This document shows positions 1 through 34,251 of a stretch of DNA of 35,742 bases, one piece after another. Each line of letters opens with the position of its first letter. The stretch's first letter is position 1. Both the position numbers and the translations under genes were made by a program. The notes beneath the pieces are model-generated. The model was not told the DNA's origin. It ran no database searches and worked only from the letters and a program-made list of their open reading frames with translations. This stretch comes from a virus: positions 1 through 35,742 of the IMG/VR virus record IMGVR_UViG_3300042525_000913. One strand, 5' to 3'.

Positions 1-3000
1 CCGACAGGGCCGGAGCCACCACGTTCAGGCTGCGCTCTAGGGCGGCGGTCTCCTTGGCGGTGAGGACGTAGCCGCTGCGGCTGGGGACAATCAGCTCTGG
101 CCCCACCTCGCCCACCAGGTAGGTTTGGCCTGCGCGGATGGGGCCACCGTCTTTGCGGGGGGTGGCTCCAGCGGGCTTGGCAGCGGCGAGGATCGCGGCG
201 ATTTGGTCGGCGTTCTGTTTGTCCAGTTGGCGCTGCTGCTCCTTGAATGCCCGGTCGGCCTCCCGCTGTTGGTTGGCGAAGGCTTCGGACGCCGCCTGCT
301 GTTCCTCCCGGAAGGCTTTGTCCTTGGCTCGTTGGTCTTCGGCGAAGGCTTCGGCGTTGGCCTCCTGCTGCTCCCGGAAGGCTTCGGCGTTGGCCTCCTG
401 CTGCTCCCGGAAGGCTTCGGCCTGGGCCTGTTGTTCCTCCTTGAAGGCTTGGTCGGCTTGGCGCTGGGTTTCGGCGAAGGCTTCGGCCTCTAGCGCCTGG
501 GCTTCCTGGAAGGCTTCGGCCTCGGCGGCTTGGGCTTCGGCGAAGGCAGCGGCCTTGGCCTGGATGCGCTCCTCAAATTCGGCGCGGGCCTTCTCCAATG
601 GCGACAGGTCGGTGTCGGCACTGGAGAGGATGGAGCCCCGTTGCCGCAGCACCTCCGCTTCGATTTTCTTGCGCTCCTTCAGCAGCCGATCCTCCTCAGC
701 GTACTGGGCCTTCAGGGCATCGGCTTCTTCCTTAGTGGCTTGGCTCAGGGCGAGGCGGCGCTCCACCTCCTGGCCCAGGGCATCAAATTCGCGGTTGCCT
801 TTGTCGCGTTCGGCCTCCAGCGCTTTTTGGAAGGCTTTGGCGGCGGCTTGCTGGCTATCCTGGAATGCCTTGGCCTCGGCCTGCTGCTGCTGTTGGAAGG
901 CTTTGGCCTGGGCGGCTTGGCCCTGGGCAAAGGCATCCTGGTCGGACTGCTGGCTGGACTGGAACGCCTTGGCCTCGGTGGACTGGGTTTTTTGGAACGC
1001 CTTGGCGTCGGCCTGCTGGGATTTGTTGAATGCTTTGGCGCTGGCCTGCTGAGATTTTTGGAACGCTTCGGCGTTCGCGGCCTGGGACTTGCTGAACAGT
1101 GCCCCCTCCTCCCGCTGGCTGTCGCCGAAGGTTTCCTCGGCGAGGCGCTTGGCTTCGTCGCGGGCGTCCTTCAGAGCATCGGCTTGGCGTTTGGCGGCTT
1201 CCTCTGCGGCCTTGGCGGCATCGGCTTGGGTGTCGGCGGCGTCGGTCACGGCGGTGGTGGTGGCCTCAGCGGTAGCCTCGGTATCGGCGACGGCTTCTTC
1301 GTTGGTGGCCTTCTGGTTGTCGAGGGTATCGCGGGCCATCTGAATCCGGGTCTGGGCCACGGCGGTTTCGGCAGCTTGGAGCTGCTTGTCTAGCTCAATG
1401 GCTTGGGCGCTGCCCTCCTCGGCCTCGGCCCGCAGCTTGCGGAGGTTGTTGAGGTTGTCGGTCTGTGCCCGGAAGCGTTGCTCTAGGGTTTGGCTTTCCA
1501 GGTTGGCCAGTTGGGTATCGGCCTGGTCTTGGGAAATTTCCCCACGGGCCAACTGCTCCAGGATCTTCGCCTGGGCTTGCAGCTTGGTGAGGTCGATGCC
1601 GCCCAGTGCCGACTTCAGCGCCTCGTCCATTTCCTTGATGCGGTCGGTCAAGCCTCCGGTGGCATCGCCCATGGCCGTTACGCCTGCGGTGGTCGCACCA
1701 ATGCGGTCGCGGTAGAGGTTGAGCTGTTTCATCTGGGCATCGCGACGGGCGATGTCTTCTTCGGTGACGGGCTTCTGTTCCTTCAGGGCATTGATGGCCG
1801 CATCAATCCCGGCGACGGTTTCCTCAATCACAGCGGGGTCAACGGCCAGCCCCTTCTCTAGGTCGGTGGCCACCTCTGCCGCTGCCAGCTTCACATCATC
1901 GGTGGCGGTGATGAGTTCATTGAAGGCGATGGCGCTACGGTTGCTGGCGGCCTCGGTGGCGGTGGCCAGTCCGGGGATAGGGCCACGGATCAGGTCGTCT
2001 AGCAGTCGCTGAAACCCGCCAATGTCTTCGCGTAGGGCGTTGAAGTTCTGCCCAGCCTCGGCCCCAATGCTGCGGCTGATTTCATCCCCGGCAGCGGTGC
2101 CAGCATCGGCCATCGCGGCCAGTGCGGTCTTGACCTCCTCGGTGCTTTTGCGCGTGGCTCCGGCCTGCTCGGTCACGGCGTTGAAGGTGTCGGCCACCAG
2201 GGCCACGCTGGCAGCGGCCCCGGCCACGGCCCCTAGGGCGATGGTGCCCTTGGCGATGGCAGCGGTCTGCGCCAGTTGGGCGGCGGTGGCTTGCCCGGTG
2301 GCCGCAGCGAGAACGCTTTTGGCGGCGGCGCTGGCCTGGGTAACGGCGGTGTTGGCAGCGGTGACGGTGGCGTTCTTGACCTGCCCTGCGCTGTCGGCCA
2401 GCAGCGCCCCGATGTTGGCTTGGTAGGCAAACACCAGGGCGGCTCTGGCCCCAGCAGCCCCGGTGGTGGCGGCGGTGTTGGCCAGTTGGGCGGCGGTGTT
2501 TTTGATGGTGCCTGCGCTGGAGATCACATCCTGCAAAATCTTGGTGCCGTTGGCGGCGTTGTAGGCGGTGACGGCAGCGGCGGCTGCGGCGAGGATGGTG
2601 GTGAAGGCGGCGGTACCAATCAGCGCTTTTTGAATTGGCCCCGGCAACCCTAGGAAGGTGTTGATCAACAGGGTGGCCCCGCGCACGGTCGGCTCAATGC
2701 CCACCGCCAGGAACTCGCCAATCGCGGCCAGCGCCCCTTGGGCCGAACCCTCGAACAACAGCAGTGCCCCGTTCAATCCTTCCAGTAGTTTCTTGCTGCT
2801 CTCCTCGGCCAGCCCCGCCGAGTTCTGCACGGCATCGTTCACCAGGGCGATCCGTTCGGGGGCGGTGTTGAGTAGCGCTTGGAAGGCGCGGCCACCCTCC
2901 ACGCCAAACAACGCCTTCATCAGCACGTCCTTGTCCTGCTGGCTGAGGCTGGTCATGTTCTGCTGAATCAGCGGCAGGATCTCCAGCACCGACTTCATCG

Positions 3001-3955
3001 AGCCATCGGCGTTTCTCACCCCTACCCCGATGGCATCGAACGCTTGGGAGGCACGGGCGCTCCCTCGCACCAACCCAGAGAACTCGGTCTCCATCCCGGC
3101 GCTGGCGATCTTCAGTCGCTCCAGTGCGGCGGCTAGGTTGGTGCCTGCCATGCTGCCCTGAATGCCCTGGTCGCCTAGCAGGCCCAGCAGCACGGCGGTG
3201 TCTCCCAGCGGTTGGTTGGCGGCGGCAGCAGCGGGGCCGACGTACTGAAACGATTCGCCCAGGGTGAGGATGCTGGAGTTGGTGTTGTTGGCGGTGGCGG
3301 TGAGGATGTCGCCCACCGTCCCGGCTTCGTCGGCAGAGAGGCCAAAGGTGCGGATGGTTTTGCCGATGATGTCGCCCGCCGCCAGCACCGATTCCCCGGT
3401 GGCTTCACTGGCACGGGCGATGCCTTCTAGCGCGGCGACCTGCTCGGTGGCGGTGAAGCCTGCGCGGGATAGGGCCACGCTCACCTGGCCGATCTCCTCC
3501 GGGCTTTTGGAGGTGACGATACCCAGCCGCTCGATTTCGCCGCGCAGGCTGGCCAGTTGTTCTTCGCTGGCCCCGCTGATTACCCCGCTCTGGCGCACGG
3601 CAGCATCGAACCCTCGGAAGGATTCGACGGCGGCGTTGGGCAATCCGGTGGCGAGGCGCTGCACCCCAGCCAACACGTTCTGGCCAAGCTGTTGCCCCAC
3701 CCCCTGAAAGATGGAGTTCATCACGTTCCCAGTCTTGGAGGTCTGATTCTCCAAGTCCTTCATCGCCCCAATGACCTGGCGGATCTCGGAGTCGTTGAGC
3801 TTGTAGGAATTTTTGAGGGCGGCAGCGGTGCGGGCCACCTGGGCATTCTCCTCGCGCACCTTCTTTAGGGCTTGCTCCATGCGGGCCACTTCCTTGGCCG
3901 CTTGGTCGCCGCCATCGGCGGAAATTTTGAAGCCCAGCTTAAAATCTCTAGCCAT
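1..3955 (-). CDS. Phage tail tape measure protein, TP901 type (C-terminus beyond the window)
   Basis: This protein sets tail length and is thought to act in DNA ejection. The reading frame is open for at least 1318 residues from ATG 3955 and leaves the window before its stop. The first ~110 residues are helical. Residues ~110-330 resemble the TP901 tape measure core, with runs such as SGVISGASEEQLASLRGEIE and LFGVEGGRAFQALLN. Small, Ala-rich segments follow. Residues 953-1051 and 1137-1246 are two arrays of 11-residue repeats (consensus AFxxxQQAxAx). Near the end lies the motif GGPIRAGQTYLVGEVGPELI, typical of tape measure C-termini. It overlaps the upstream tail gene by 8 nt. Many rightward reading frames here are only antisense shadows of this frame. 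Confidence 0.93.
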   Translation of the reverse strand, partial: MARDFKLGFKISADGGDQAAKEVARMEQALKKVREENAQVARTAAALKNSYKLNDSEIRQVIGAMKDLENQTSKTGNVMNSIFQGVGQQLGQNVLAGVQRLATGLPNAAVESFRGFDAAVRQSGVISGASEEQLASLRGEIERLGIVTSKSPEEIGQVSVALSRAGFTATEQVAALEGIARASEATGESVLAAGDIIGKTIRTFGLSADEAGTVGDILTATANNTNSSILTLGESFQYVGPAAAAANQPLGDTAVLLGLLGDQGIQGSMAGTNLAAALERLKIASAGMETEFSGLVRGSARASQAFDAIGVGVRNADGSMKSVLEILPLIQQNMTSLSQQDKDVLMKALFGVEGGRAFQALLNTAPERIALVNDAVQNSAGLAEESSKKLLEGLNGALLLFEGSAQGALAAIGEFLAVGIEPTVRGATLLINTFLGLPGPIQKALIGTAAFTTILAAAAAAVTAYNAANGTKILQDVISSAGTIKNTAAQLANTAATTGAAGARAALVFAYQANIGALLADSAGQVKNATVTAANTAVTQASAAAKSVLAAATGQATAAQLAQTAAIAKGTIALGAVAGAAASVALVADTFNAVTEQAGATRKSTEEVKTALAAMADAGTAAGDEISRSIGAEAGQNFNALREDIGGFQRLLDDLIRGPIPGLATATEAASNRSAIAFNELITATDDVKLAAAEVATDLEKGLAVDPAVIEETVAGIDAAINALKEQKPVTEEDIARRDAQMKQLNLYRDRIGATTAGVTAMGDATGGLTDRIKEMDEALKSALGGIDLTKLQAQAKILEQLARGEISQDQADTQLANLESQTLEQRFRAQTDNLNNLRKLRAEAEEGSAQAIELDKQLQAAETAVAQTRIQMARDTLDNQKATNEEAVADTEATAEATTTAVTDAADTQADAAKAAEEAAKRQADALKDARDEAKRLAEETFGDSQREEGALFSKSQAANAEAFQKSQQASAKAFNKSQQADAKAFQKTQSTEAKAFQSSQQSDQDAFAQGQAAQAKAFQQQQQAEAKAFQDSQQAAAKAFQKALEAERDKGNREFDALGQEVERRLALSQATKEEADALKAQYAEEDRLLKERKKIEAEVLRQRGSILSSADTDLSPLEKARAEFEERIQAKAAAFAEAQAAEAEAFQEAQALEAEAFAETQRQADQAFKEEQQAQAEAFREQQEANAEAFREQQEANAEAFAEDQRAKDKAFREEQQAASEAFANQQREADRAFKEQQRQLDKQNADQIAAILAAAKPAGATPRKDGGPIRAGQTYLVGEVGPELIVPSRSGYVLTAKETAALERSLNVVAPALS
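218..547 (-). repeat. Hendecad array 1 in tape measure (10 x 33 nt)
   Basis: Ten consecutive 33-nt units encode 11-residue repeats, from AFAEAQAAEAE through two identical copies of AFREQQEANAE to AFKEQQRQLDK. The span is exactly 330 nt. An 11-residue period fits a right-handed or nearly straight coiled coil rather than a heptad coil. Confidence 0.9.
803..1099 (-). repeat. Hendecad array 2 in tape measure (9 x 33 nt)
   Basis: Nine consecutive 33-nt units run from LFSKSQAANAE and AFQKSQQASAK to AFQKALEAERD. The span is exactly 297 nt. It is separated from array 1 by 85 residues of ordinary charged helix. It is richer in Lys and Ser than array 1, so it has diverged but keeps the same AF...Q register. 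Confidence 0.88.
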
Positions 3956-4586
3956 CGCCCTCGGCCTCCAGTCGGTTCAGCAGTTGGTCGATGCGGCTCA
4001 TGGCCTGGGGGGCATCGGCCATCATCGTGGCGTGGTGGCGTTCCTTCGCTGGCTTGGCCACCCAACTGCGATCCTCCGCCACCGCCAATAGCTCCCGGAA
4101 GGGGCGACTCATCAGCCCGTCCACCTCCGCGAGGCTGTTGCACTGGCCAACCAACGCCGCCAACAAACTGGCCTTGTCGCTGATGGGCAAGCCCGGATCG
4201 GCACCGGGGCTGTGGGGGTGGCGCTGGGCCGGGGGCTGGTTCAGCAGCAGCAGGGGGGCGGTGATAATTTCGTCGGCCTCCTTGCGGGCAAACAGCAGGC
4301 GCATCGCTTGGCGGACGCTGACGGTTTCGGCGGGGATGCCGGAAGCGATTAAACACCAATTAACCAGCCATTGAAACCGAGCATGGCTGACGTAGACCTC
4401 CTCCGGGCTGGCCTCAGAATCTTGGAGGATGCCCACCGCTTCCTCGCGTAGCTCCTGGAACACAAACCAGTCATCGGCATTGCAGCCGCCGCAGATGGCA
4501 TAGCGCCCAAACCTATCCCGATACTGGAGGTCGCCAGTACCGAGGAACTTGTAGTCGGGCGCGTTATCGGGTTCCAGCCAGGGCAT
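3948..4586 (-). CDS. Tail protein between tube and tape measure (possible assembly chaperone)
   Basis: 212 residues, family not recognised. It lies between a 55-residue ORF and the tape measure gene, overlapping the latter by 8 nt. This is the place where siphoviruses usually keep tail assembly chaperones. The N-terminus begins MPWLEPDNAPDYKFLG and contains a single CxxC (CGGC). The middle is hydrophobic and helical, and the C-terminus is helical. I saw no clear slippery sequence linking it to the 55-residue ORF, which ends 3 nt upstream, so the chaperone role is inferred from position only. Confidence 0.75.
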   Translation of the reverse strand: MPWLEPDNAPDYKFLGTGDLQYRDRFGRYAICGGCNADDWFVFQELREEAVGILQDSEASPEEVYVSHARFQWLVNWCLIASGIPAETVSVRQAMRLLFARKEADEIITAPLLLLNQPPAQRHPHSPGADPGLPISDKASLLAALVGQCNSLAEVDGLMSRPFRELLAVAEDRSWVAKPAKERHHATMMADAPQAMSRIDQLLNRLEAEGDG

Positions 4587-4589
4587 GGG

Positions 4590-4757
4590 TTAGGGCTTCG
4601 CGGATAGGGCTTGGTCGATGAGGCTGATAGCTTTGGCCAGGTGGGTCAGTGCCTCCGTGGCCTGGGGCGTGTTGGCAGGGCCGCTCTCATGCACCGCCAG
4701 CTTGTGGTGATAGGCGGTGAGGATGTTCAGCAGCGAAGACAGAAAAGCGTCACGCAT
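4590..4757 (-). CDS. Small tail-region protein, 55 aa
   Basis: The frame runs from ATG 4757 to TAA 4590 and encodes a helical protein starting MRDAFLSSLLNILTAYHHKL. It fills the gap between the tail tube gene and the 212-residue gene, whose ATG follows 3 nt after this stop. No strong Shine-Dalgarno is visible. A small first chaperone frame is a reasonable guess from position. The family is not recognised. Confidence 0.6.
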   Translation of the reverse strand: MRDAFLSSLLNILTAYHHKLAVHESGPANTPQATEALTHLAKAISLIDQALSAKP

Positions 4758-4783
4758 AGGAGGGCAAGCCTAAGAGGTCATGT

Positions 4784-4856
4784 CCCCCCTCTCCTCCCTG
4801 GGAGAGGGGGCTAGGGGGTGAGGGCTACGGGGTGGTGGGCGGTGCCCACCCTACGG
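4784..4856. repeat. Dispersed repeats A and D, intergenic
   Basis: A copy of the ~40-bp repeat A (CCCCTCTCC..GGGAGAGGGGGCTAGGGGGTGAGG) is followed at once by repeat D, which contains the inverted repeat GTGGGC-GGT-GCCCAC and ends CCCTACGG. Together they fill the spacer after the tail tube gene. Both families recur elsewhere in the window. Confidence 0.85.
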
Positions 4857-4858
4857 GT

Positions 4859-5653
4859 TTATGCCGTCATCGTCGCCAAGTTGTACTCTGCGTAAGGCTT
4901 TTCCCAGCCGTTGGGGATGCCCACCGACAGATCGAGCTGCACCGTCTGGATGCTGTTGTCGATGGTGAGGGCCGCGTCGGAAATCAGTTCGCACAGCGGG
5001 TAGTGGCGGATCACCTTTTGGGAGATGCCTGCCAGGTAGACCTCGGCCCACAGCTCGAAGATGCCGAACTTGGTGGCCGTGCCGGGGCCACCGTAGTACT
5101 GGATGCTGGTCGCCGTCGCCATGATGGGGATGTCGATGGGGGCACCCGCCTGGGCGGCATTGAATACCAACTTGGTATTGGCCGCATCTAGAACCACCTG
5201 GCCAGCACTGGGTGTGGTGGTGCCACGCACCAGGGAACCGGGCTGGCCCCATGCGCCCTCCTCGGAGACAAAGGCGTAGATGCCGTAGGTGGTGTCGTTG
5301 GCGGTGGTAAAGAAGGCGTTGGAAATTTCGTAGGGGGCGGTGGCAGGGACGGTGGTGCTGATGATGCTGGGCAGGGGCACGTTGCTCCCGGTCTTGGGGA
5401 ACTCGTTGCGGCCAAAGCCCATGTGGAACCAGTCTTGCTCGTTCCAGGAAATCTGGAGGCCGTAGGTGGTGGCCCCTTTGATTTTGCGCTTGGTCTTGTA
5501 TTCGCCGTTGATGAAGCGGTTGGTTTCCTGCTCCTCGCTCTCGCTGGAGTCGGCCCAGCTAATGGGGCCAAGGAAGAAGCCACGCTGCTGGGGGCGGCTG
5601 CCGTTGCCGAGCTGGGTGGTGCGTCCAAAAATTTTGCCGAGTCCTTGGGGCAT
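4859..5653 (-). CDS. Major tail tube protein
   Basis: 264 residues. It starts MPQGLGKIFGRTTQLGNG and continues as a beta-rich protein without a signal peptide or membrane segment. It follows the gp36/gp37-like connector genes and precedes the chaperone-position genes and the tape measure, which is the standard place for the tube subunit of a long-tailed phage. No sheath-sized gene accompanies it, so a non-contractile tail is likely. The assignment rests on position, size and composition; the sequence family was not identified. Confidence 0.75.
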   Translation of the reverse strand: MPQGLGKIFGRTTQLGNGSRPQQRGFFLGPISWADSSESEEQETNRFINGEYKTKRKIKGATTYGLQISWNEQDWFHMGFGRNEFPKTGSNVPLPSIISTTVPATAPYEISNAFFTTANDTTYGIYAFVSEEGAWGQPGSLVRGTTTPSAGQVVLDAANTKLVFNAAQAGAPIDIPIMATATSIQYYGGPGTATKFGIFELWAEVYLAGISQKVIRHYPLCELISDAALTIDNSIQTVQLDLSVGIPNGWEKPYAEYNLATMTA

Positions 5654-5657
5654 GGGT

Positions 5658-6125
5658 CTAGATCCTCTGCTGATAAACGAGATTGACTTGGTACAAACTG
5701 GCGAAGGCCATCACGCCGCTGGCGGCATCGCGGCCTAGGGGGGTGGTCTCTAGATGGAACAAACCGGGGATGCAAACCGTGTGGCCCGGTGTGGCCAAGG
5801 TGGGCATCAGGCCCGACAGCAGACTGCGCACCTGGGCCATGATTTCCCAGCCCTCCCGGTAGGCTTGTTCGCGCTTGGCCTTCAGGCCCAACGTCAGAAG
5901 CAACTGGGCTTCCTCGGTCTGGGTGAGGTAGCGCCCTGCCCCGGTGGGTTCGTTGCTGCGCAGGTCGTCCATCTCCACCGCCAGCACCGCCGCCCCTCGC
6001 ACCGCCCCGGTGGTTTCGGTCTCCGGGTCAACCGCCAGCTTCACCCGCGCCATCAGGGTCGCATTGCTTTGCAACGCCGCCACCACGGCAGACTCCAAAT
6101 CGGTTTGTAGGTTGGGGGTGGGCAT
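5658..6125 (-). CDS. Mu gp37-like tail-completion protein (DUF1834-like)
   Basis: 155 residues, starting MPTPNLQTDLESAVVAALQS. The pattern of an N-terminal helix, a central strand with LAVEMDDLRSNEP, a helix rich in AQLLLTLGLKAKREQAYREG and a C-terminal domain ending YQVNLVYQQRI fits the Gp37 family that terminates tails in Mu-like phages. It starts 2 nt after the DUF1320-like gene and ends 4 nt before the tube gene, so it is part of the same connector cluster. Overall similarity is judged by eye. Confidence 0.65.
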   Translation of the reverse strand: MPTPNLQTDLESAVVAALQSNATLMARVKLAVDPETETTGAVRGAAVLAVEMDDLRSNEPTGAGRYLTQTEEAQLLLTLGLKAKREQAYREGWEIMAQVRSLLSGLMPTLATPGHTVCIPGLFHLETTPLGRDAASGVMAFASLYQVNLVYQQRI

Positions 6126-6127
6126 GG

Positions 6128-6562
6128 CTAGAAATCGGCGAGGGTGTCGCGGCTGAAGACGGGGGCAGGGCTGGAGTAGGACGGACTACCTGGGCTGGGG
6201 GCCACCTCGGAGGCAGGCAGGCCCAGGCCCATCTTGCAACTGCCGATGAGCTGAAGCTGCTTGATGGCATCCTCGTACCGCGCCCGCACGTCGTCGCGAG
6301 GCTTGAGGCTGTCGAGGTAGTAACGCACCAGATCCAGCTCAATGGCCTTCAGGATCGCCGGGGCGGTGGCAAAGGGCATCGCCGCCGCCACGCTGGGGCA
6401 CCCGGCAATCATGCCGTCAATCAACGCCGTCGCCTTCTCCTGATTGCGGAGTAGGTTGGCGGTGTTGACGGTGGTGGCCTCTGGGTCGTGCAGGTTGGTG
6501 AGGTCGATCATCTCGTCCTCACCAAAGGCATCCAGGTAATCCTGAAGGGCGGCGTAGGGCAT
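6128..6562 (-). CDS. Mu gp36-like head-tail connector (DUF1320)
   Basis: 144 residues. The opening MPYAALQDYLDAFGEDEMID followed by helices carrying ATALIDGMIAGC and a segment with LDLVRYYLDSLKPRDDVRAR is typical of DUF1320 proteins, for example Mu gp36, which form the head-tail connector ring. The C-terminal ~35 residues are Pro/Ser rich and probably disordered. It abuts the small gene upstream and the gp37-like gene downstream, giving the expected order. Confidence 0.82.
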   Translation of the reverse strand: MPYAALQDYLDAFGEDEMIDLTNLHDPEATTVNTANLLRNQEKATALIDGMIAGCPSVAAAMPFATAPAILKAIELDLVRYYLDSLKPRDDVRARYEDAIKQLQLIGSCKMGLGLPASEVAPSPGSPSYSSPAPVFSRDTLADF

Positions 6563-6745
6563 CTACTTCACCAGCAATCCTTGGGCAATGAACGCGGCCA
6601 CCGTGGCGCTGGCGGGGTCAACCTCAATCACGCCGTTGGCAGGCACGGTGCCGATGCCCTCAATGAACAGATCGGCAGTAGCCCGGTAGGAGGCGAACTC
6701 TGGCAGGGCGTTTGGGGTTGGGTCGGGCTTGGGTTTGGTGGGCAT
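6563..6745 (-). CDS. Small connector-region protein, 60 aa
   Basis: The start at ATG 6745 (MPTKPKPDPTPN) is chosen over an upstream frame extension. The protein has a Pro-rich N-terminus and then a compact domain (FASYRATADLFIEGIGTVPA...AAFIAQGLLVK), matching the short Mu gp35-like proteins found before gp36. The N-terminal fold recalls the first ~50 residues of the gene at 7507-7950 (YRALTTISDG...ALLAVGYVE). It ends directly at the DUF1320 start. Confidence 0.65.
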   Translation of the reverse strand: MPTKPKPDPTPNALPEFASYRATADLFIEGIGTVPANGVIEVDPASATVAAFIAQGLLVK

Positions 6746-6796
6746 GGCGGGGATGGGTGAGGGGCGTTCCACAATTGTGGAAAAGGGGGGATGGGT

Positions 6797-6816
6797 TGGT
6801 GGGCGGTGCCCACTAC
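6797..6816. repeat. Dispersed repeat D copy
   Basis: TTGGTGGGCGGTGCCCACTA carries the GTGGGC-GGT-GCCCAC inverted repeat seen at 4835, 7977 and 8975. It overlaps the 3' end of the HU gene by a few bases. Confidence 0.6.
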
Positions 6817-7091
6817 GAGCCGCCGACTTGGGTTTTGAACTCTTTGCCGGGATGGAACCGGGGCACCAACTTGGCGGGGATGACGAGCTCTTCTCCGGTG
6901 GCGGGGTTGCGGCCCATACGTTCCTTGGTCAGCTTCGCCTCGAAGGCACCGAAGCCCACCAGGGTGACTTTCTCGCCGTTGGCTACGGTGGATTGAATCA
7001 CCTCAATCAGGCCATCCAGGGCACGGACCACGTCCTTCTGGGAGAGGTCGGTGACGGCGGCGGTGCGTTGAATCAACTCAGCTTTGTTCAT
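6813..7091 (-). CDS. HU/IHF-family nucleoid protein
   Basis: 92 residues from ATG 7091 (MNKAELIQRTAAVTDLSQKD), a full-length HU-family protein. The beta-arm signature GRNPATGEELVIPA and the core VTLVGFGAFEAKLTKER are intact. HU/IHF proteins bend DNA. In Mu, host HU and IHF assist the transpososome, so a phage-borne copy may serve transposition or genome packing. It sits unusually in the late head-tail region rather than among early genes. An upstream TTG at 7115 is a less likely start. Confidence 0.95.
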   Translation of the reverse strand: MNKAELIQRTAAVTDLSQKDVVRALDGLIEVIQSTVANGEKVTLVGFGAFEAKLTKERMGRNPATGEELVIPAKLVPRFHPGKEFKTQVGGS

Positions 7092-7139
7092 GGGGTTCTT
7101 GGGGTAGCTGGGCAAATGCGACGGGCATGTCGCTTTTGG

Positions 7140-7358
7140 CTAGGCGGGGAAGTCGTCATCCTCGGCGGGCTCTACAAACCCCCGACTGCCACCGCCTTGG
7201 CGACGGCCAGGGAATTGATCTCGGTCGCCCTTCCTCACCACTGGGCCGCTCTCCTCGCGACGAGGGTTGGCCTGGATGGCGGAGAACATCATCCCCATGG
7301 CCGCGCTCATGGTGGCGATGGAGATGATGAGGATGGCAACGGTCAGTAGGTCGGTCAT
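7140..7358 (-). CDS. Small membrane protein, 72 aa (holin-like candidate)
   Basis: One N-terminal transmembrane segment (LLTVAILIISIATMSAAMGM) is followed by a charged, Arg/Gly-rich tail ending EDDDFPA. Its ATG overlaps the TGA of the 51-residue membrane protein upstream (ATGA), which implies coupled translation. Size, topology and pairing recall small phage holins, but no endolysin is adjacent, so function is not established. Confidence 0.7.
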   Translation of the reverse strand: MTDLLTVAILIISIATMSAAMGMMFSAIQANPRREESGPVVRKGDRDQFPGRRQGGGSRGFVEPAEDDDFPA

Positions 7359-7510
7359 CGGTGAAAGGTGGGTAGGCCCACGGGGAATTGGTCTCGGTCG
7401 GGGGGCGGGGTTGGGTCGGCCCTAGCGGCTAGCACCACCCAAAAGAAGAAGGTCACGCTGACCAGCACCAGGGCCAGGGCAAACAGGTCGGCTTGGCGGA
7501 GGGGTGTCAC
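7355..7510 (-). CDS. Small membrane protein, 51 aa, GTG start
   Basis: GTG 7510 is preceded by a clear Shine-Dalgarno (GGAGGT, 7 nt upstream). The protein begins MTPLRQADLFALALVLVSVT, has one transmembrane helix (about residues 9-29), and ends in a Pro-rich tail. Its GTG overlaps the stop of the gene upstream (GTGA), and its own stop overlaps the next ATG (ATGA). It forms a tightly coupled pair with the 72-residue membrane protein. Confidence 0.75.
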   Translation of the reverse strand: MTPLRQADLFALALVLVSVTFFFWVVLAARADPTPPPDRDQFPVGLPTFHR

Positions 7511-7950
7511 GGGCGTACCTCCGTGTGATGGATCACCTGCACCAGGGGGGCCACCTCGGCCCAGCGGGTGTCACTCATCCCCGCTACATGCTGGGCATCC
7601 TTGAGATTGGCCAAGGGGCGGGCGGCAATCAGCTTGGCGGCGGTGACTTCCCCAATCCGAGGCAGGGCAGTTAGCTCCTCCAGGGTGGCGGAATTAAGAT
7701 CCACCAAAAACGACACAGTGTCGTTTTTGGCCTCACCCCCCTTCCCAAGGGGGGCAGGGGGGATCTCCGGCTCCGGCACCCCCTCGCCCTCCTGGGAGAG
7801 GGGGCTAGGGGGTGAGGGCGGCTCGGCCTCCACATAACCCACCGCCAACAGCGCCGCCGCATCCTCCTCCCCCAGCGCCACGGTTTCCCCCGCCTGGTAA
7901 TCGCGGGAGCCATCGCTGATGGTGGTGAGGGCACGGTAGAAATGCAGCAT
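7507..7950 (-). CDS. Connector-like N-domain plus helix-hairpin-helix domain, joined by repeat-derived linker
   Basis: 147 residues. Residues 1-43 (FYRALTTISDGSRDYQAGET...) resemble small phage connector proteins. Residues ~82-125 (VDLNSATLEELTALPRIGEV, then KLIAARP) are a classic ComEA-type helix-hairpin-helix that contacts DNA backbone. Everything between comes from dispersed repeats read in frame: PPSPPSPLSQEGEG (repeat A), EPEIPPAPLGKGGEA (repeat B) and KNDTVSFL (palindrome E). It follows the major capsid gene and is translationally coupled to the 51-residue membrane protein. The role of the HhH domain in the virion is unknown. Confidence 0.8.
   Translation of the reverse strand: MLHFYRALTTISDGSRDYQAGETVALGEEDAAALLAVGYVEAEPPSPPSPLSQEGEGVPEPEIPPAPLGKGGEAKNDTVSFLVDLNSATLEELTALPRIGEVTAAKLIAARPLANLKDAQHVAGMSDTRWAEVAPLVQVIHHTEVRP
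7704..7730. repeat. Palindrome E, copy 1
   Basis: A perfect inverted repeat with arms CCAAAAACGACAC and GTGTCGTTTTTGG around one A (27 bp). It is read in the gene as KNDTVSFL. A second copy with 12-bp arms lies at 24443-24467. Confidence 0.9.
7733..7820. repeat. Dispersed repeats B and A in tandem, inside a gene
   Basis: Repeat B (CCCCCTTCCC..GGGGGGCAGGGGGGATCTCC) is followed by repeat A (CTCCTGGGAGAGGGGGCTAGGGGGTGAGG). Both are read in frame on the minus strand as IPPAPLGKGGE and PPSPPSPLSQEGEG. Confidence 0.88.
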
Positions 7951-7975
7951 GGTTCAGGGTGGGGTTAGGGGCTGG

Positions 7976-8000
7976 GGTGGTGGGCGGTGCCCACCCTACG
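7976..8000. repeat. Dispersed repeat D copy
   Basis: GTGGTGGGCGGTGCCCACCC lies directly after the major capsid gene stop, in the spacer before the connector/HhH gene. Its inverted repeat could form a short hairpin in the late mRNA. Confidence 0.75.
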
Positions 8001-8001
8001 A

Positions 8002-8940
8002 TTAGGCGACGGCGTTCTCAATGAAGTAGCCCAGGTCAGGCGCGGAGATGATCTCCTTGAGGCTCCAACCCACGCGGGTGATCTGGCCGCCGCGCATCCC
8101 GATGTGGGGGTCGGGGATGGTGCCCGCGATGCGAGACCCGAACTGGCCCGTGAACCCAAAGGTGGTGCCCCGCTGTGGGCCTGCCAGGGTATCGCGGTAC
8201 AGCAGGGCAATGTGCTTGCCCCACACCCGCGCATAGGTGGCGGCTTGGCCACGGGCGGCGGTGTTCAGCCAGCCTTGGCCCACGTAGATTTGTTCGATCT
8301 CCAGCAGCTCAGCCACCTGCTCACGGGTCACGGTGCCCGCCGCTCCGGTGCCTGCCCCAGTGCCCTTGATGGCCTCAATCATCTTGGGATGCTGGCGAAG
8401 GACGCGCCACGCATCCTGGCCGATGACCATGATGTTGGGGCGCATCAGGGGGATGTCGAGGCGTAGCAGCAGGTCGCTCAGGGGGTTGCTGTCGGCGTGG
8501 CTGTATTGGGCGGTGGAGGTGTGCGCCACCTTGTTACCGCTGGGGTAGGTGCCCGCCGCAAACACCAGGTTGGCCACCCGGATCTCATGTCGCAGCGTTA
8601 GCAGGTTAGACAGGAACTCGGTACTCTTGCCCACCACGTCATAGCCGGGGATGTTGTTGGCCTCCAGGTCGTCCTGGGGGATGGGGTCATCGTAGGCGTA
8701 ATCCTCGGTGCTGTCGGTCACTTCCGTCCCGGTGAAGCTGAGCTGGTTAGGACGGCTCTTGCGGCCCACCTTGTCATCGGGCGCGGTAAAGCCTTCTTCC
8801 TTGGTGTGCTTGATGTAGGTGAACTTTTTGGGGACCGGGGTGATGGGCAGCACCTCCGCCCCAATCAGCGCCGGGTTGCGGTGGGCAATCGCCACCGCCG
8901 TGTATTCGTTGTTAGTCGGAAACGGGTAGTTCGCAGTCAT
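8002..8940 (-). CDS. Major capsid protein
   Basis: 312 residues, starting MTANYPFPTNNEYTAVAIAH. The pattern of an N-terminal arm (ALIGAEVLPITPVPKKFTYI), the PIPQDDLEANN segment, a central helical domain with IMVIGQDAWRVLRQHPKMIE, and a C-terminal beta domain is that of the HK97-fold capsid proteins found in many transposable and related phages. It follows the DUF2190 protein and the protease/scaffold gene, the usual head gene order. Size fits an unprocessed capsid subunit. Confidence 0.9.
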   Translation of the reverse strand: MTANYPFPTNNEYTAVAIAHRNPALIGAEVLPITPVPKKFTYIKHTKEEGFTAPDDKVGRKSRPNQLSFTGTEVTDSTEDYAYDDPIPQDDLEANNIPGYDVVGKSTEFLSNLLTLRHEIRVANLVFAAGTYPSGNKVAHTSTAQYSHADSNPLSDLLLRLDIPLMRPNIMVIGQDAWRVLRQHPKMIEAIKGTGAGTGAAGTVTREQVAELLEIEQIYVGQGWLNTAARGQAATYARVWGKHIALLYRDTLAGPQRGTTFGFTGQFGSRIAGTIPDPHIGMRGGQITRVGWSLKEIISAPDLGYFIENAVA

Positions 8941-8969
8941 GGCGTTCAGAGGTTAAAGGGTGGGTCAGG

Positions 8970-8991
8970 CGTAGGGTGGGCACCGCCCACC
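8970..8991. repeat. Dispersed repeat D copy, inverted
   Basis: CGTAGGGTGGGCACCGCCCA sits between the decoration-protein and capsid genes. It is the reverse complement of the copies at 4830 and 7976, showing that this family inserts in both directions in spacers. Confidence 0.75.
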
Positions 8992-9002
8992 ATCAATCAG
9001 GT

Positions 9003-9380
9003 CTAGGCACCTTGCACAGAGCCAGGGCCAATCAGCACCGCGCCAATGTCGCCGGATACCCCAGCAACCAGGGCTGTGCCAACGATGCGGTTGTTCACGC
9101 CAGCGGCAGGCGCAGCGGCCACAGCATAGCCACTGCCATTAGCCGTCACCAAGTCACCCGCGCTCACGTTGCCGCCGTAGATCACCTCGGCGATGCCAGA
9201 GACAAACACATCCACCCGGTCGCCACTGGCAGCGGCCACCTCGGTCGAGATGCCAATCAGCTTGTCGGTTGCGGCGGCTCCGGCCACCACCTCGCCAGCG
9301 GTGCTGTGGGGTTTCACAATGATCCGGGCAGGGATGGCCCCGCCAGCATTAAACGCTTTTACCAGTCCGTCAGTACGCAT
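9003..9380 (-). CDS. Capsid decoration protein (DUF2190 family)
   Basis: 125 residues, Gly/Ala/Val rich and beta-type, starting MRTDGLVKAFNAGGAIPARI. DUF2190 proteins stabilise or decorate phage capsids. Recognisable elements are the N-terminal ARIIVKPHSTAGEVVAGAA, the middle DVFVSGIAEVIYGGNVSAGD and the C-terminal GTALVAGVSGDIGAVLIGPG. It lies between the protease/scaffold gene and the major capsid gene, as expected. Confidence 0.88.
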   Translation of the reverse strand: MRTDGLVKAFNAGGAIPARIIVKPHSTAGEVVAGAAATDKLIGISTEVAAASGDRVDVFVSGIAEVIYGGNVSAGDLVTANGSGYAVAAAPAAGVNNRIVGTALVAGVSGDIGAVLIGPGSVQGA

Positions 9381-9423
9381 AGGGAATCAGGGGTTAGAGG
9401 TCAGGGGTCAGGTCTTCTCCTGT

Positions 9424-9463
9424 CCCCCCTCTCCTTCCTAGGAGAGGGGGCTAGGGGGTGAGG
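9424..9463. repeat. Dispersed repeat A copy
   Basis: A repeat A copy (CCCCTCTCCTTCCTAGGAGA...) lies in the spacer between the protease/scaffold gene and the decoration gene. It has the same orientation as the other copies. Confidence 0.85.
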
Positions 9464-9487
9464 TTCCAAGGCCAGGGGTGAGTGCCG

Positions 9488-9913
9488 TTATTTTTTGGCG
9501 ACCTTGGCTACCGCTTCGGCGGCTCCGATGGTGATGCCCTTGGCGGCTTGCTCAGCCTGGTAGGTGCGGGCCGCTTCGGCTAGGGCAATGGGGTTCTCGG
9601 CAAAGTCCACGGTGTCGCTGGGCTTGGCCACCTCACCAAATTCCACCAGCTTTGGAAGGCCGTTTAACAGCCCCTTAAACCGCTCTAAAGGGGTCTCGCC
9701 TTCGGCAAATTCCACCTCGGTCGGGTGGCCAGGGTCGAGGTGGCAGAGGAGCGAAACCACGGTGTCCTTCTGACTGGGGTGCAGTTTCTCCTTCAGGCTC
9801 TCGGCAAAGGCAACGTGCTCGGCCTTGGTTAGCTCCGCTTCCTTGGCGGCTAGCTTGGCCTCGCGTTCAGCCAGGGCCGCTTCACGGGCAGCAATCTCTT
9901 CAGCAGTGGGCAT
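9488..9913 (-). CDS. Possible nested scaffold protein, in frame within the protease gene
   Basis: ATG 9913 (MPTAEEIAAREAALAERE) begins just at the coiled-coil scaffold part of the protease gene. AGGTAG lies about 6 nt upstream. The product would have 141 residues, keep only the scaffold segment, and correspond to Mu gpZ. This is based on analogy and the internal start signal. Confidence 0.45.
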   Translation of the reverse strand: MPTAEEIAAREAALAEREAKLAAKEAELTKAEHVAFAESLKEKLHPSQKDTVVSLLCHLDPGHPTEVEFAEGETPLERFKGLLNGLPKLVEFGEVAKPSDTVDFAENPIALAEAARTYQAEQAAKGITIGAAEAVAKVAKK

Positions 9914-10453
9914 AGGGTCTACCTGGGTAGGGGTGTCGTCAGGGTCAAACTCTTGTCCCCCCTCTCCTTCCTGGGCTAGGGGGCTAGGGGGTGAGGGCGG
10001 CTCGGCAGTGGGGGCATCCTCAGCAAAGGCCACCTCCACCACGTCGCTCTCTTCTTCGGCAAAGCTCACATCGGCCAGCCCCTTAATCGCCGGAGGCTGA
10101 GCACCCAACAGCCCAACGTCCCTGAGGTAGTAAACGCCAGGGACAGGGTTGCGGGGAGAGGTGGGGGTATAAAATCGGGCGCTGCGTTTCTTGAAGGGGC
10201 CACTCACCAACTCGGCAAATTCGGCCACGGTGTTATGGGCGGTGGCCACCAAGCCCCCCTCGCCAAACTCCAACGCCTGCACCCAGCCATAGGCCGGGGC
10301 GGTGTCTTTGGGATGGCCAATGACCACAGGCGCTTCGTGCTTGGCAGGGTCGTAGGCGGCGGCGCTGGCCACCAGGTCGGCCTCCGAAAACACAACCGAG
10401 GTGCCGTTCTGGTCGGTAAAGCTGCCCGGTCGGGCAAGGGGCAAACGGGGCAT
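9488..10453 (-). CDS. Capsid maturation protease with C-terminal scaffold (Mu I/Z-like)
   Basis: 321 residues from ATG 10453 (MPRLPLARPGSFTDQNGTSV); the longer upstream frame overlaps the divergent gene start region and looks non-coding. Residues ~1-145 match the Mu gpI protease family, with APVVIGHPKDTAPAYGWVQA and FAELVSGPFKKRSARFYTP. A linker containing repeat A (PPSPPSPLAQEGEG) follows. Then comes a charged, helical scaffold region (EEIAAREAALAEREAKLAAK) ending in AVAKVAKK. In Mu the scaffold gpZ is translated from an internal start, and a matching ATG with upstream AGGTAG is seen at 9913. Confidence 0.9.
   Translation of the reverse strand: MPRLPLARPGSFTDQNGTSVVFSEADLVASAAAYDPAKHEAPVVIGHPKDTAPAYGWVQALEFGEGGLVATAHNTVAEFAELVSGPFKKRSARFYTPTSPRNPVPGVYYLRDVGLLGAQPPAIKGLADVSFAEEESDVVEVAFAEDAPTAEPPSPPSPLAQEGEGGQEFDPDDTPTQVDPMPTAEEIAAREAALAEREAKLAAKEAELTKAEHVAFAESLKEKLHPSQKDTVVSLLCHLDPGHPTEVEFAEGETPLERFKGLLNGLPKLVEFGEVAKPSDTVDFAENPIALAEAARTYQAEQAAKGITIGAAEAVAKVAKK
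9957..10000. repeat. Dispersed repeat A copy inside the protease/scaffold gene
   Basis: It is read in frame as PPSPPSPLAQEGEGG and lies between the protease and scaffold domains, so it lengthens a linker without touching either domain. Confidence 0.85.
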
Positions 10454-10587
10454 AGGGCGCACAGAAAAACCACTGCGCCCAGTATCGCCACCCGGCCCGC
10501 CCATGGGCAGGCGGCAGCCCTGCCACCTGCCCAATGCCCCAACCCCGCCCCACAATGGAGGCTGACCCCAAGGAGCCACCCCGGCCC

Positions 10588-10920
10588 ATGAGCATCAAAT
10601 CTAGCCCCGACCGCATTCTCGATATTCTGGAAGCCCGGTTCCAGCCCAGCACCGTCAGCCGCACGGCAGTGAATGCCAGCGCCAGCAGCGTGGCCCTCGT
10701 TGCCGCTAATGCTGGCCGGGTGGGCCTCGCGATTTTTAATAATGGCAGCACCGATCTGCATCTGGCCTATGGAACCACGGCGGCTACCACGACGAGCTTT
10801 TCGGTGCGGGTTTCCCCTGGTGGATTCTATGAGGCTCCGGTGGGCTGGGCGGTGCTGGCGGTGCAAGGGATTTGGTCGGGTTCGCCCACGGGGACGGCTC
10901 AAATCACGGAGGTGCTGTAA
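10588..10920 (+). CDS. Unknown rightward late gene, 110 aa
   Basis: It starts at ATG 10588 (MSIKSSPDRILDILEARFQP) with AAGGAG 12 nt upstream; an in-frame ATG at 10555 is an alternative. The protein is beta-rich (AGRVGLAIFNNGSTDLHLAY, then SPGGFYEAPVGWAVLAVQGI). The look is that of a small virion or adhesin-associated protein that binds in a beta-sandwich, but no family was recognised. It is the first gene of a rightward trio and diverges from the protease gene. Its stop overlaps the next ATG by one base. Confidence 0.75.
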   Translation: MSIKSSPDRILDILEARFQPSTVSRTAVNASASSVALVAANAGRVGLAIFNNGSTDLHLAYGTTAATTTSFSVRVSPGGFYEAPVGWAVLAVQGIWSGSPTGTAQITEVL

Positions 10921-11450
10921 TGCCTTTGTTTCTGCCTAGACCTACCCTCGCTGATCTTGGTGGGCAATCCCTAGACAGCGACTTGACTGACATCGCCACC
11001 CTCGCCACGACGCCTTTTGGGCGTGCGTTTTTGACCCTGGCAGACTCTAGCGGAATCACGGTGCAGCAAAGCACCTGGACTCCGGCGTATGTAATGACGA
11101 CAAGCGGCAGTGTGACGGCTTCTACGGCTGAGGGGCGATGGTGGGCCATTGGAAAATTAAGGGTCGTCACAGGGTTTTTAGTTGCTAGCGGAGTGATTAG
11201 CCCTGTAGGCAGTGTGCGAAGTAGCCTACCGTTTGCCGTCCTGACGACTACTATTCCTGCCGCTGTTCGTGGTGCGGCATGGGCGGAAACGGTCACAAAC
11301 TTGTCAGCCGAAGCGCATGAAGGGGGTAGTTTATTGGTGCTAAGAAAAAACAGCCCAGGGGCCGCTAGTTCTCTAGTGAATGCGGCAGATTTAGCTACTA
11401 ATGCCGGCAGTAATCAAATTAGATTCTGCGTTATTTACGAGGTAGCGTAA
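10920..11450 (+). CDS. Tail-fibre or adhesin-like protein, 176 aa
   Basis: ATG 10920 overlaps the previous TAA by one base. The N-terminal motif LADLGGQSLDSDLTDIATLA, then FGRAFLTLADSSG, resembles the linker repeats common in tail-fibre and host-recognition proteins. The rest is a beta-rich domain, perhaps the receptor-binding part. It is followed by a DUF4376 gene, a frequent partner of tail fibres. Base composition is a little less GC-rich than the surrounding genes, which suggests a separate origin. Confidence 0.75.
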   Translation: MPLFLPRPTLADLGGQSLDSDLTDIATLATTPFGRAFLTLADSSGITVQQSTWTPAYVMTTSGSVTASTAEGRWWAIGKLRVVTGFLVASGVISPVGSVRSSLPFAVLTTTIPAAVRGAAWAETVTNLSAEAHEGGSLLVLRKNSPGAASSLVNAADLATNAGSNQIRFCVIYEVA

Positions 11451-13887: not shown

Positions 13888-14059
13888 TGGTTTCTAGTGG
13901 TTCATAAAGGATGCCGTCCTTCTCGTTGCCCACGGGATTGATGTGCTCCACGTCGCCACTGGCAAACCAAATCGGAATCCCATCTGGATAGGCCGCGCAC
14001 CCACGGGGTTCTCCCTTCCGGTAAGGGTAGATGTGCTTACACGTTTGACAGCTAATCAC
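13880..14059 (-). CDS. Small Cys protein next to MuF-ART, 59 aa
   Basis: GTG 14059 overlaps the MuF stop (GTGA); TTG 14062 is an alternative. The protein has CQTCKHIYPY at the N-terminus and RGCAAYPDGIPIWFASGDVE, HINPVGNEKDGI afterwards. This C-x2-C ... C-x-A-x-P-x-GIP ... H pattern is shared by small proteins I have seen beside phage portal/MuF genes. It may bind a metal. Its place directly after the MuF-ART fusion makes a partner or neutraliser of that enzyme possible, which is only an inference. Confidence 0.75.
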   Translation of the reverse strand: MISCQTCKHIYPYRKGEPRGCAAYPDGIPIWFASGDVEHINPVGNEKDGILYEPLETNG

Positions 14060-15927
14060 CAATCACCTCCCCAATCTTCCTCTTCACTTACCGCCCCTGG
14101 ATTGTAGTTATCCAGATCGCCTAAGCCCATCCATTCATCCTCCAGCGGGTCGCCTGCAATCACTCGGCTAGGGGCACTCCTGAGGGTGGCGGCAGATTCG
14201 TTCCCTTCGGCCACCATGTCCTTTGCGCTCACACTAGGATCAATCACGATCCTATCTAGCTGTTCACTGTTTAGCCGTTCGTTTTCTACTGTCACCACCT
14301 GGCGCTGGTCAAAGGCAACGCCGTATCCCAGGTCGGTCAGGTAAATCGAATCATGCCCACGGGCCTTTAGGAATGCCGTTAGAGTTGCTGAGTCCACGCC
14401 GTTGCTTTGGCTTCCGGGGAAGGATGCGCCCAGAGCGTCCAAATCTGCGGAGGTCACCACATAGGGGTTGTTCGCTTTGATGTGGCTCGTAACTAAGCCA
14501 ACCTCGACGTTGCCGTTTTGGCTGGCTGCTTTGGCGTACAACTCCCCAATCCCTCGGTCTACGCCGAAGTAGGTTCCCTGGCCGTAGATGCCCTTGTCGT
14601 TCAGCCAGGGCTTGGCCCCATCGCCAGCAATGTCGTCGGTGATGCTGCGGCGGTTGCCGTGGTAGAACCGAGTCGTTCCGAAGTAGGAATCCTGGAGGTA
14701 GGCGGCGGCTTCGGTAGGGGTCATCTGGGGTTTCCAGCCCCGTGTACTATCCCCCGGCATCAGCGGCGCATTGATGGCCTGGTCTATGTCAGCAATCAAT
14801 CGGTTCCGCCCTTGGGCGGCTTCTCGCGCCTGCTCCAGCCTGGACTGTTCAGCCTTATTAAATTTCACAGACGCCAAGGCCGCATCGATGGGGATGTAGC
14901 CATTCAGGGAAACCGCATCCTTGACCGCTGTTTGATAATCGCCTTTTCGTGCCCTGGGGTTGGCCGCTTTGTATTCGTCCCAGCTCAGGTTGTGGGCAGC
15001 GGTGGGGTTGTCCTGGTTCTTCTGCCAGTAGCGGGCATCCACATACTCGCGGAATTGTCCCGGGGTGAGATCCGTTTTAGCGTTGGGGTTCCAGTTCGGA
15101 TCGCCCTTCAGGCTTGGGGGCACCGTGGTAGAGGCTGGGCTGGCGGGAGTCGCCGCAGGCTGCGGGGCTGGCTTGGGTTGATACGCCGCTGCCTCGGCTC
15201 GCACCTGGGCGGCAATGGCCGGGTCTAGCCTGCGGGTCACGGCATCCAGCAGTTGGGCGCGATGCTGGGGGCCACTGCTGCCGTGCATGTGGCCCCAGCC
15301 TGCCGGGGGGTTCATCGCTGTGGTTTGCCCTGGCAGGTCGGGGATGGGCAAGCGGTCGCCCAGTTGTGGCCCTGGCTCTGCGGCCAAGCCCCGCCGCTCT
15401 AGGTCTCGGTCGCTGAGGGTGAAGACGCTGCACCGACAGCCGTAGCCCTGGGGCGGACTGCCGAAGCTGCTCCAAAAGGGATCGTCGTGGCGGAACACTC
15501 GGCCATCCAATGAGAGGTGTTGGGGGCGGGGGTGGGCGCTGCCGCCGTGTCGCCATTGCCAGTAGGGGCGGCTGGTGGTCACTTGCTGCATCTGCTCGTA
15601 GCGGCCAGCGGCGTAGCTGGTTCGCAGGTTGGTGTCCCAAATCACGTTGGCCCGCCATGCGCTGCCGCCCCGGAACGTCCAGCCCGTGCGCTCCACAATG
15701 CTGTCAAACTCTTGCCGGAACTGCTCTAGGGTTTGCCCCGTGGCAATGGCCCGATCCACCGCCGACCGAAAATCATTCAGCACCGCGCCCTTGGCCCCAG
15801 CCACCACAAAGGCGGCATCGTGCTCGGCCCCAGACACATCCCGGTAGCTGTCGGTGGGCACATTCACCCGCTCGGCCAGAAAGGCGATCTGCTCCTCAAA
15901 CGGTAGCCGTTGCCAGGGTTCAGCCAT
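14056..15927 (-). CDS. MuF minor head protein fused to an ADP-ribosyltransferase-like domain
   Basis: 623 residues from ATG 15927 (MAEPWQRLPFEEQIAFLAER). Residues ~1-220 are the MuF (Mu gp30/SPP1 gp7) head morphogenesis domain, ending in the signature block with LDGRVF, DPFW, PPQGYGCRCSVFTLS. A Pro/Ala-rich linker and a helical middle follow. Residues ~416-560 look like a mono-ADP-ribosyltransferase of H-Y-[E/Q] type: FYHG (H423), GQGTYFGVD (Y453), IKANNPYVV, GHDSIYL and FDQRQV (Q543). MuF proteins enter the virion near the portal, so the C-terminal enzyme could be carried into the new host. Overlaps of a few bases on both sides place it in the late operon. Confidence 0.88.
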   Translation of the reverse strand: MAEPWQRLPFEEQIAFLAERVNVPTDSYRDVSGAEHDAAFVVAGAKGAVLNDFRSAVDRAIATGQTLEQFRQEFDSIVERTGWTFRGGSAWRANVIWDTNLRTSYAAGRYEQMQQVTTSRPYWQWRHGGSAHPRPQHLSLDGRVFRHDDPFWSSFGSPPQGYGCRCSVFTLSDRDLERRGLAAEPGPQLGDRLPIPDLPGQTTAMNPPAGWGHMHGSSGPQHRAQLLDAVTRRLDPAIAAQVRAEAAAYQPKPAPQPAATPASPASTTVPPSLKGDPNWNPNAKTDLTPGQFREYVDARYWQKNQDNPTAAHNLSWDEYKAANPRARKGDYQTAVKDAVSLNGYIPIDAALASVKFNKAEQSRLEQAREAAQGRNRLIADIDQAINAPLMPGDSTRGWKPQMTPTEAAAYLQDSYFGTTRFYHGNRRSITDDIAGDGAKPWLNDKGIYGQGTYFGVDRGIGELYAKAASQNGNVEVGLVTSHIKANNPYVVTSADLDALGASFPGSQSNGVDSATLTAFLKARGHDSIYLTDLGYGVAFDQRQVVTVENERLNSEQLDRIVIDPSVSAKDMVAEGNESAATLRSAPSRVIAGDPLEDEWMGLGDLDNYNPGAVSEEEDWGGDW

Positions 15928-16087
15928 AAATCGTCCCTCGGTTTTGCTCCTTCTCCCACAGCACATCCCGCAGCGCTAGATAGTCCTCCAGCAAGAACTG
16001 CCCCTCCAGCAAATCCCGTGGCATCAGCGCCAGGTGGCAGCGGGTAGAGTGCAGCGTGAACTCTCGCTCTAGGGTGGGTGGGTTCAT
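15920..16087 (-). CDS. Small late protein, 55 aa
   Basis: It starts MNPPTLEREFTLHSTRCHLA at ATG 16087, which overlaps the upstream stop (ATGA), and it overlaps the MuF start by 8 nt. Mostly helical. No family recognised. Tight packing between the portal and MuF genes supports a real gene. Confidence 0.65.
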   Translation of the reverse strand: MNPPTLEREFTLHSTRCHLALMPRDLLEGQFLLEDYLALRDVLWEKEQNRGTIYG

Positions 16088-34087: not shown

Positions 34088-34189
34088 CTTTCCATGTGTG
34101 GGGAAATTCGCTTTCCATAGCTTTCCATAGCTTTCCATAGCTTTCCATAGGTGAGGAAATTCGCTTTCCATAGCCCCTGCTTTCCATAG
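34088..34189. repeat. Tandem decamer array CTTTCCATAG
   Basis: Seven CTTTCCAT cores lie at 34088, 34111, 34121, 34131, 34141, 34164 and 34180. Four are head-to-tail with a 10-bp period (34111-34150). Two copies carry the same upstream flank, GAGGAAATTCG or GGGGAAATTCG, before the decamer. The region 34025-34251 holds no convincing gene. A 10-bp period places sites on one face of the helix, as in iterons or regulator-binding arrays. Confidence 0.9.
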
Positions 34190-34251
34190 CCCCTGGCCCC
34201 CAACTGGCACACCCGCCTTAACACCCCGCAACACCACCCCCAAACCCAGCA

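Follow-up and report, generated by a model that had tools for sequence, protein, structure and literature searches.

Paired 11-residue repeat arms that appear to vary in lockstep around a conserved hinge in the tape measure protein of a Mu-like phage

The tape measure protein (TMP) of a Mu-like virus holds two arrays of 11-residue (hendecad) units, one on each side of a conserved hinge. Sequence comparison among related TMPs argues strongly, if not finally, that the two arrays change in lockstep, i.e., that the arms they build stay length-matched. The best explanation we can offer, to which we give an even chance of being right, is a TMP whose paired hendecad arms fold at the hinge into an antiparallel hairpin outside the tail tube.

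Results

Genome context and identity of the tape measure gene

The window, i.e., the whole stretch of DNA analysed here, is an entire IMG/VR record of 35,742 bases. As in Mu-like transposable phages, it encodes a MuA-type transposase, a MuB-type ATPase and proteins of the Mu Gp27, Mu F and Gp36 kinds, and the genes follow each other in the order terminase, portal, Mu F-like, neck, major head, Gp36-like, candidate tube and TMP. The major head protein has a close relative (77%) in the genome of Tildeniella torsiva, a cyanobacterium; the virus is related to cyanobacterial prophages. Among the families matched in the window there is no sheath-like gene, which makes a non-contractile tail likely.

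The features that identify the tape measure gene are the following.

2..3955, minus strand: TMP gene, 1318 aa visible (PF10145, tape-measure PHROGs, homologue in relative L014)
2903..3535, minus strand: PhageMin_Tail domain, TMP residues 141-351, family match
83..151, minus strand: TMP C-terminal motif DGGPIRAGQTYLVGEVGPELIVP, phrog_1538 match at residues 1252-1302, kept in relatives

PF10145 matches with E 5.7e-35 and many tape-measure PHROGs match the window TMP with E down to 6.5e-58. The gene is furthermore the longest tail gene and lies 3' of the head, neck and tube genes. Judged by its sequence, the product of 3955..2 is firmly assigned as a phage tape measure protein, and the PF10145 and PHROG matches bear out the earlier note, which had placed the arrays in such a protein. 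The 3' end of the gene is cut by the left end of the contig; about 62 aa are absent judging from the homologue in L014, which is complete. A tblastn search against phages and plasmids gave no match to the linker or the arrays, and among the phage matches listed only the N-terminal domain of the TMP was covered. The direct search for TMP relatives in genome contigs returned none.

Some observations concern other parts of the window. The Mu F-like head protein (14056-15966, minus strand) has 636 aa, with family matches mainly to the first 265; by eye, its C-terminal part (YHGNRR...GIYGQGTYFGVDR) resembles a separate fused domain, perhaps ADP-ribosyltransferase-like. A GC-rich dispersed repeat with core CCTCACCCCCTAGCCCCCTCTCCC occurs inside many reading frames (10-12 copies of its 12-mers; sites at 7779, 9418, 9951, 16573, 23166, 25485, 27342 and others), where it encodes peptides like PSPPSPLSQGGEGE. 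Positions 34110-34195 hold perfect short tandem repeats of GCTTTCCATA (x4.1) and GCTTTCCATAGCCCCT (x2.1).

Two hendecad arrays around a linker

Both arrays sit in the C-terminal third of the window TMP, which is laid out as follows.

1127..1162, minus strand: start anchor of arm 1 (RDEAKRLAEETF), homologous motif among relatives
818..1147, minus strand: array 1, N-terminal arm, 10 hendecad slots, 330 nt, residues 937-1046
596..817, minus strand: linker between the arrays, 74 aa, conserved
725..742, minus strand: hinge QATKEE (AxPxER/ADPEER in relatives), helix break in both AlphaFold models
602..643, minus strand: loop QRGSILSSADTDLS before array 2, low model confidence, shortened in L034
233..595, minus strand: array 2, C-terminal arm, 11 hendecad slots, 363 nt, residues 1121-1241
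344..421, minus strand: perfect 33-nt tandem duplication, AEAFREQQEAN AEAFREQQEAN AEAF, 45-nt identity run at lag 33
215..238, minus strand: end anchor of arm 2, QQRQLDKQ, homologous motif among relatives

Phe recurs at 11-residue spacing in array 1 (10 F, residues 943-1042, window 1129-832) as well as in array 2 (11 F, residues 1127-1237, window 577-247). The counts of 10 and 9 units given by the earlier note are right for the AF...Q units of arrays 2 and 1 (330 and 297 nt), i.e., for the last 10 of array 2 and the last 9 of array 1, but the F register adds one starting unit to each (11 and 10). That AF...Q is kept in all 19 of these units is slightly overstated, given that A precedes F in 18/19 and Q follows four residues after F in 18/19.

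The lag-11 self-identity of the arrays is 43-46% (z about 10-11), and self-identity at lags 11, 22 and 33 lies 7 to 11 standard deviations above shuffled sequences. TMP residues 1-925 show no periodicity comparable to the arrays, and an F run of 5 arose in just 3/20,000 shuffles. Across the arms the slot consensus is Q-A-A-x-x-A-F-x-x-x-Q, Q being the most frequent residue in slots -6 and +4 (at +4 in 97/136 units). In 14/14 arms the hydrophobic moment is highest at 97-99 degrees per residue, which fits 11/3 and not 7/2, i.e., 11 residues per 3 turns. Relative to L014, nucleotide differences in the arrays are distributed 45/35/78 over codon positions 1/2/3, with dN 0.22 and dS 0.78; thus, the arrays are coding-constrained. 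Antisense to them runs a 304-aa open frame (138-1052, plus strand) that the periodic codons probably bring about as a side effect.

AlphaFold places helices with pLDDT about 97 across both arrays; the helical run is interrupted at the hinge, and a loop precedes array 2. The structure prediction proposed as a check by the earlier note, for a coil of 11-residue period, returns the long helices over both arrays. The pTM values of 0.42 and 0.57 are about what is expected from one rigid arm plus a short helix, such that AlphaFold neither supports nor excludes packing of the arms. A Foldseek search with the predicted models gave no significant match, and a sequence search against solved structures found nothing matching the repeat region.

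Units are gained and lost in 33-nt steps

L014 is the nearest relative, with 98.8% identity over window 3821-11116. From about TMP codon 45 onward (window about 3821) the identity falls to about 70-73%, which indicates that the tape module was exchanged inside the TMP gene. The L014 arrays align unit by unit with those of the window and have one unit fewer in each (9+10 vs 10+11). Within array 2, neighbouring 33-nt copies at window 344-421 are identical at 33/33 nt in the best register, which is stronger than the near-identity claimed before. Together with the L014 counts, this exact duplication confirms the proposed change in 33-nt steps. Relatives likewise differ by whole units (7+8, 8+9, 9+10, 10+11 and 15+15).

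The extra unit of array 1 relative to L014 is not a perfect copy, its best neighbour matching at 23/33 nt. The newest unit of array 2, by contrast, matches its neighbour perfectly, so the two arrays changed in separate events.

The arms stay matched across lineages

To collect relatives, we used a DNA pattern for AF-x3-Q in register together with linker profiles. TMPs of the same plan were found in L031 (= L037), L032 and L112, L034, L110 (= L134) and L135. Further cases have the linker kept or the arrays cut: L029 (contig 3300022222_000017) has 23 slots in array 1 but could not serve to test the lockstep, as its contig ends inside array 2, L113 keeps the linker with arrays too degenerate for counting, and L136/L137 keep the linker with arms of 110/108 and no F arrays. 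The linker of the window is 58-60% identical to those of L014, L031 and L032. Linker-profile searches for more lineages yielded none further with countable F arrays. An F-x3-Q DNA pattern run on 386 cyanobacterial genomes matched 7, the stretches shown resembled simple repeats, and its reversed control also matched a few genomes; these matches were left unused. F-x3-Q hendecad arrays of different composition (e.g., QLGRDFSADQA) also occur in other viral-contig proteins (L059, L068, L074, L084, L089, L095 and others).

The F-slot counts of the seven lineages are 10+11, 9+10, 8+9, 7+8, 15+15, 8+9 and 8+9. Arm length was counted in residues between motifs shared by homology across all lineages, i.e., from start anchor to hinge for the first arm and from SPLE to end anchor for the second. 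In six lineages the arms differ by exactly 17 residues (140/123, 129/112, 118/101, 107/90, 118/101 and 118/101); in the seventh, L034, the difference is 16 (183/167). That is, the first arm spans 107 to 183 residues across lineages at a nearly fixed offset to the second, as a hairpin about the hinge would have it. Length changes in multiples of 11 follow from the register of the units, while the constant arm difference does not.

A permutation test of the constant difference gives 6/5040, or 1/120 with 5 distinct pairs when related lineages are merged, for a statistic that was picked post hoc on seven lineages, some of them related. Independent random walks on an assumed tree reproduce a constant difference with that spread in at most 3/10,000 runs. 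Assembly collapse is an unlikely source of the matched counts, as L032 and L112 agree from different metagenomes and as L110, a metagenome-independent record, gives the same result as a genome from GTDB (L134).

Array length does not follow tape length

The earlier note read the arrays as a way to tune tail length. This corresponds to the tape of Belcaid et al., in which every 11-residue unit is one mark along a straight tape and the tail is as long as the number of units dictates; that both arms are equal would then be a coincidence of descent. The F-every-11 pattern is the same as in the published unit TMPs (PMC3271669): their pattern 1, F or W at every eleventh residue over seven F/W positions, is found from 9 start points in the window and from 7 in L014. 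Deletions in the TP901-1 TMP shorten the tail by about 0.15 nm per residue, the loss of 347 residues taking it from 118 to 65 nm (0.153 nm/aa; PMC5099701), in agreement with the about 1.6 nm per unit that had been estimated for the arrays and that is correct for a straight helix.

For the relatives we took TMP length as a proxy for tail length. Among eight related TMPs, array length is unrelated to TMP length (r = -0.16); the tracking of tape length by unit number, a trait of TMPs with 11-aa units, is thus not seen here. L032 and L112 both have 7+8 units although their TMPs differ in size (about 1329 and 1514 aa), and of the 122 aa by which the window and L014 TMPs differ the arrays account for 22. 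A tail tube ring measures about 4 nm, i.e., more than one unit (1.65 nm), so single steps cannot each alter the tail. Finally, the arrays vary in lockstep, a behaviour not expected of a pure length ladder. Tuning of tail length is therefore not borne out by the proxy nor by the lockstep, and we hold this account to be rather unlikely.

Less likely readings: chaperone docking or an envelope conduit

The F residues may instead be docking marks for a tail assembly chaperone, with the arrays kept similar by the length of the chaperone or by drift from a shared ancestor. F/W marks were proposed as chaperone anchors (PMC3271669; PMC5099701), and a 212-aa ORF (3948-4586) occupies the chaperone slot, though without a chaperone family match. 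Exchanging one TP901-1 repeat for 11 alanines had little effect (PMC5099701). L110 and L135 carry R, Q, H, A or L at several F slots with register and arm length kept, and docking gives no reason for a constant arm difference. We consider it very improbable.

Another possibility draws on the pilot protein H of phiX174: ejected arms of several TMPs would form a parallel hendecad bundle, i.e., a Q-lined alpha-helical conduit across the envelope, with an arm length (16-27 nm) matching the distance spanned. The H-tube hendecads are Q/N/R-lined and 17 nm long (PMC7354561), TMPs leave the tail on ejection and have been associated with DNA channels (PMC11329794), and the arms of 107-183 residues would correspond to that 16-27 nm. 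Hendecads and Q-rich slots are present in the arms, Q being commonest at the two slots named above. On the other hand, H does not appear among the matches obtained, no solved structure matched the region, and the plan of two arms and a hinge is absent from H. This reading appears quite improbable to us.

Discussion

A proposed hairpin outside the tube

In the hairpin reading, which we prefer, the C-terminal third of the TMP would consist of two very long alpha-helices of hendecad (3-turn) units that flank the conserved hinge. Units come and go singly as 33-nt tandem duplications or deletions. For helices of equal length that flank a hinge, mutual pairing is the simplest arrangement, and an antiparallel helical hairpin would give the reason for the matched length. 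Folding at the hinge puts the end anchor near the start anchor, alike for arms of 107 or 183 residues; in L034, with its shorter linker, the two sides of the hinge have 183 and 191 residues. A unit added to one arm would persist only when the second arm already matches it or comes to do so. Against the hairpin stand L136/L137, which have the linker and arms of 110/108 without F arrays, and the separate changes of the two arrays in the window. Two candidate indicators of pairing were set aside: in charge, array 1 is near neutral and array 2 negative in the window and L014 but both are negative in other relatives, and the mirrored F-slot loss in L110 and L135 overlaps for antiparallel and parallel arrangements, i.e., it does not discriminate.

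The TP901-1 TMP lies straight in the tube at about 0.145 nm per residue (PMC5099701), and the diffocin TMP is a straight coiled-coil homotrimer in the tube, for which its authors expect refolding after release (PMC11329794). As measured TMPs are straight in the tube, a hairpin is ruled out for the in-tube form unless six helices fit into the lumen, and the paired state would more likely exist before the protein is loaded or once it has been ejected into the envelope. While in the tube, these residues would probably be extended at about 0.15 nm each, such that, going by TP901-1, a matched pair of units would add about 3.3 nm. Going further, we tentatively suggest, as a possible but doubtful extension, that the arrays are the arms of one long hairpin (or of a hairpin bundle, three copies giving six helices) formed outside the tube, that selection keeps the arms equal, and that unit number reflects the length of the refolded device, e.g., its envelope reach, and not tail length.

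Relation to known systems

The repeats themselves and the idea of a unit tape are already known (PMC3271669); what is new are the paired, co-varying arms about a hinge. In the accessible text of Belcaid et al. from 2011, F/W units of 11 residues make up a tape to which units are added and from which they are lost. Their TMPs from Clostridium, Bacillus and Staphylococcus prophages share with ours the long F-every-11 runs, whole-unit variation and 33-nt duplications (PMC3271669). Here, in contrast, two arrays flank a conserved hinge and co-vary, the unit is A/Q-rich (xAxxxAFxxxQ), and co-varying arrays are not described in that text. The TP901-1 TMP, whose repeats were dissected genetically in 2016, also has aromatic-marked 11-residue repeats in a mostly helical protein, but its 29 repeats of 11 or 18 aa with mixed spacing form one repeat region with no paired arms described (PMC5099701). 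The diffocin TMP is helical like ours; it is a straight homotrimer, with no hendecad arrays described in the accessible text (PMC11329794). The phiX174 H protein likewise has Q-rich hendecad helices and helps DNA to cross the envelope, but belongs to an unrelated small ssDNA phage and has 3 hendecads followed by heptads in a decameric tube, with no hinge-linked arm pair described (PMC7354561). In the literature searched, with most subscription journals outside its scope, we found no report of paired co-varying TMP arms.

Implications

How a TMP changes shape from loading to tube to release is poorly known, because the protein is flexible and rarely resolved. The matched arms suggest that they zip together and are not two independent rulers. 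With lengths of 107 to 183 residues, they provide a natural experiment on which parts must meet, and they separate the role of a ruler from that of a refolded device, which are normally tangled. The arms further show that the partner array has to be checked before a difference in unit number is taken to mean a difference in tail length.
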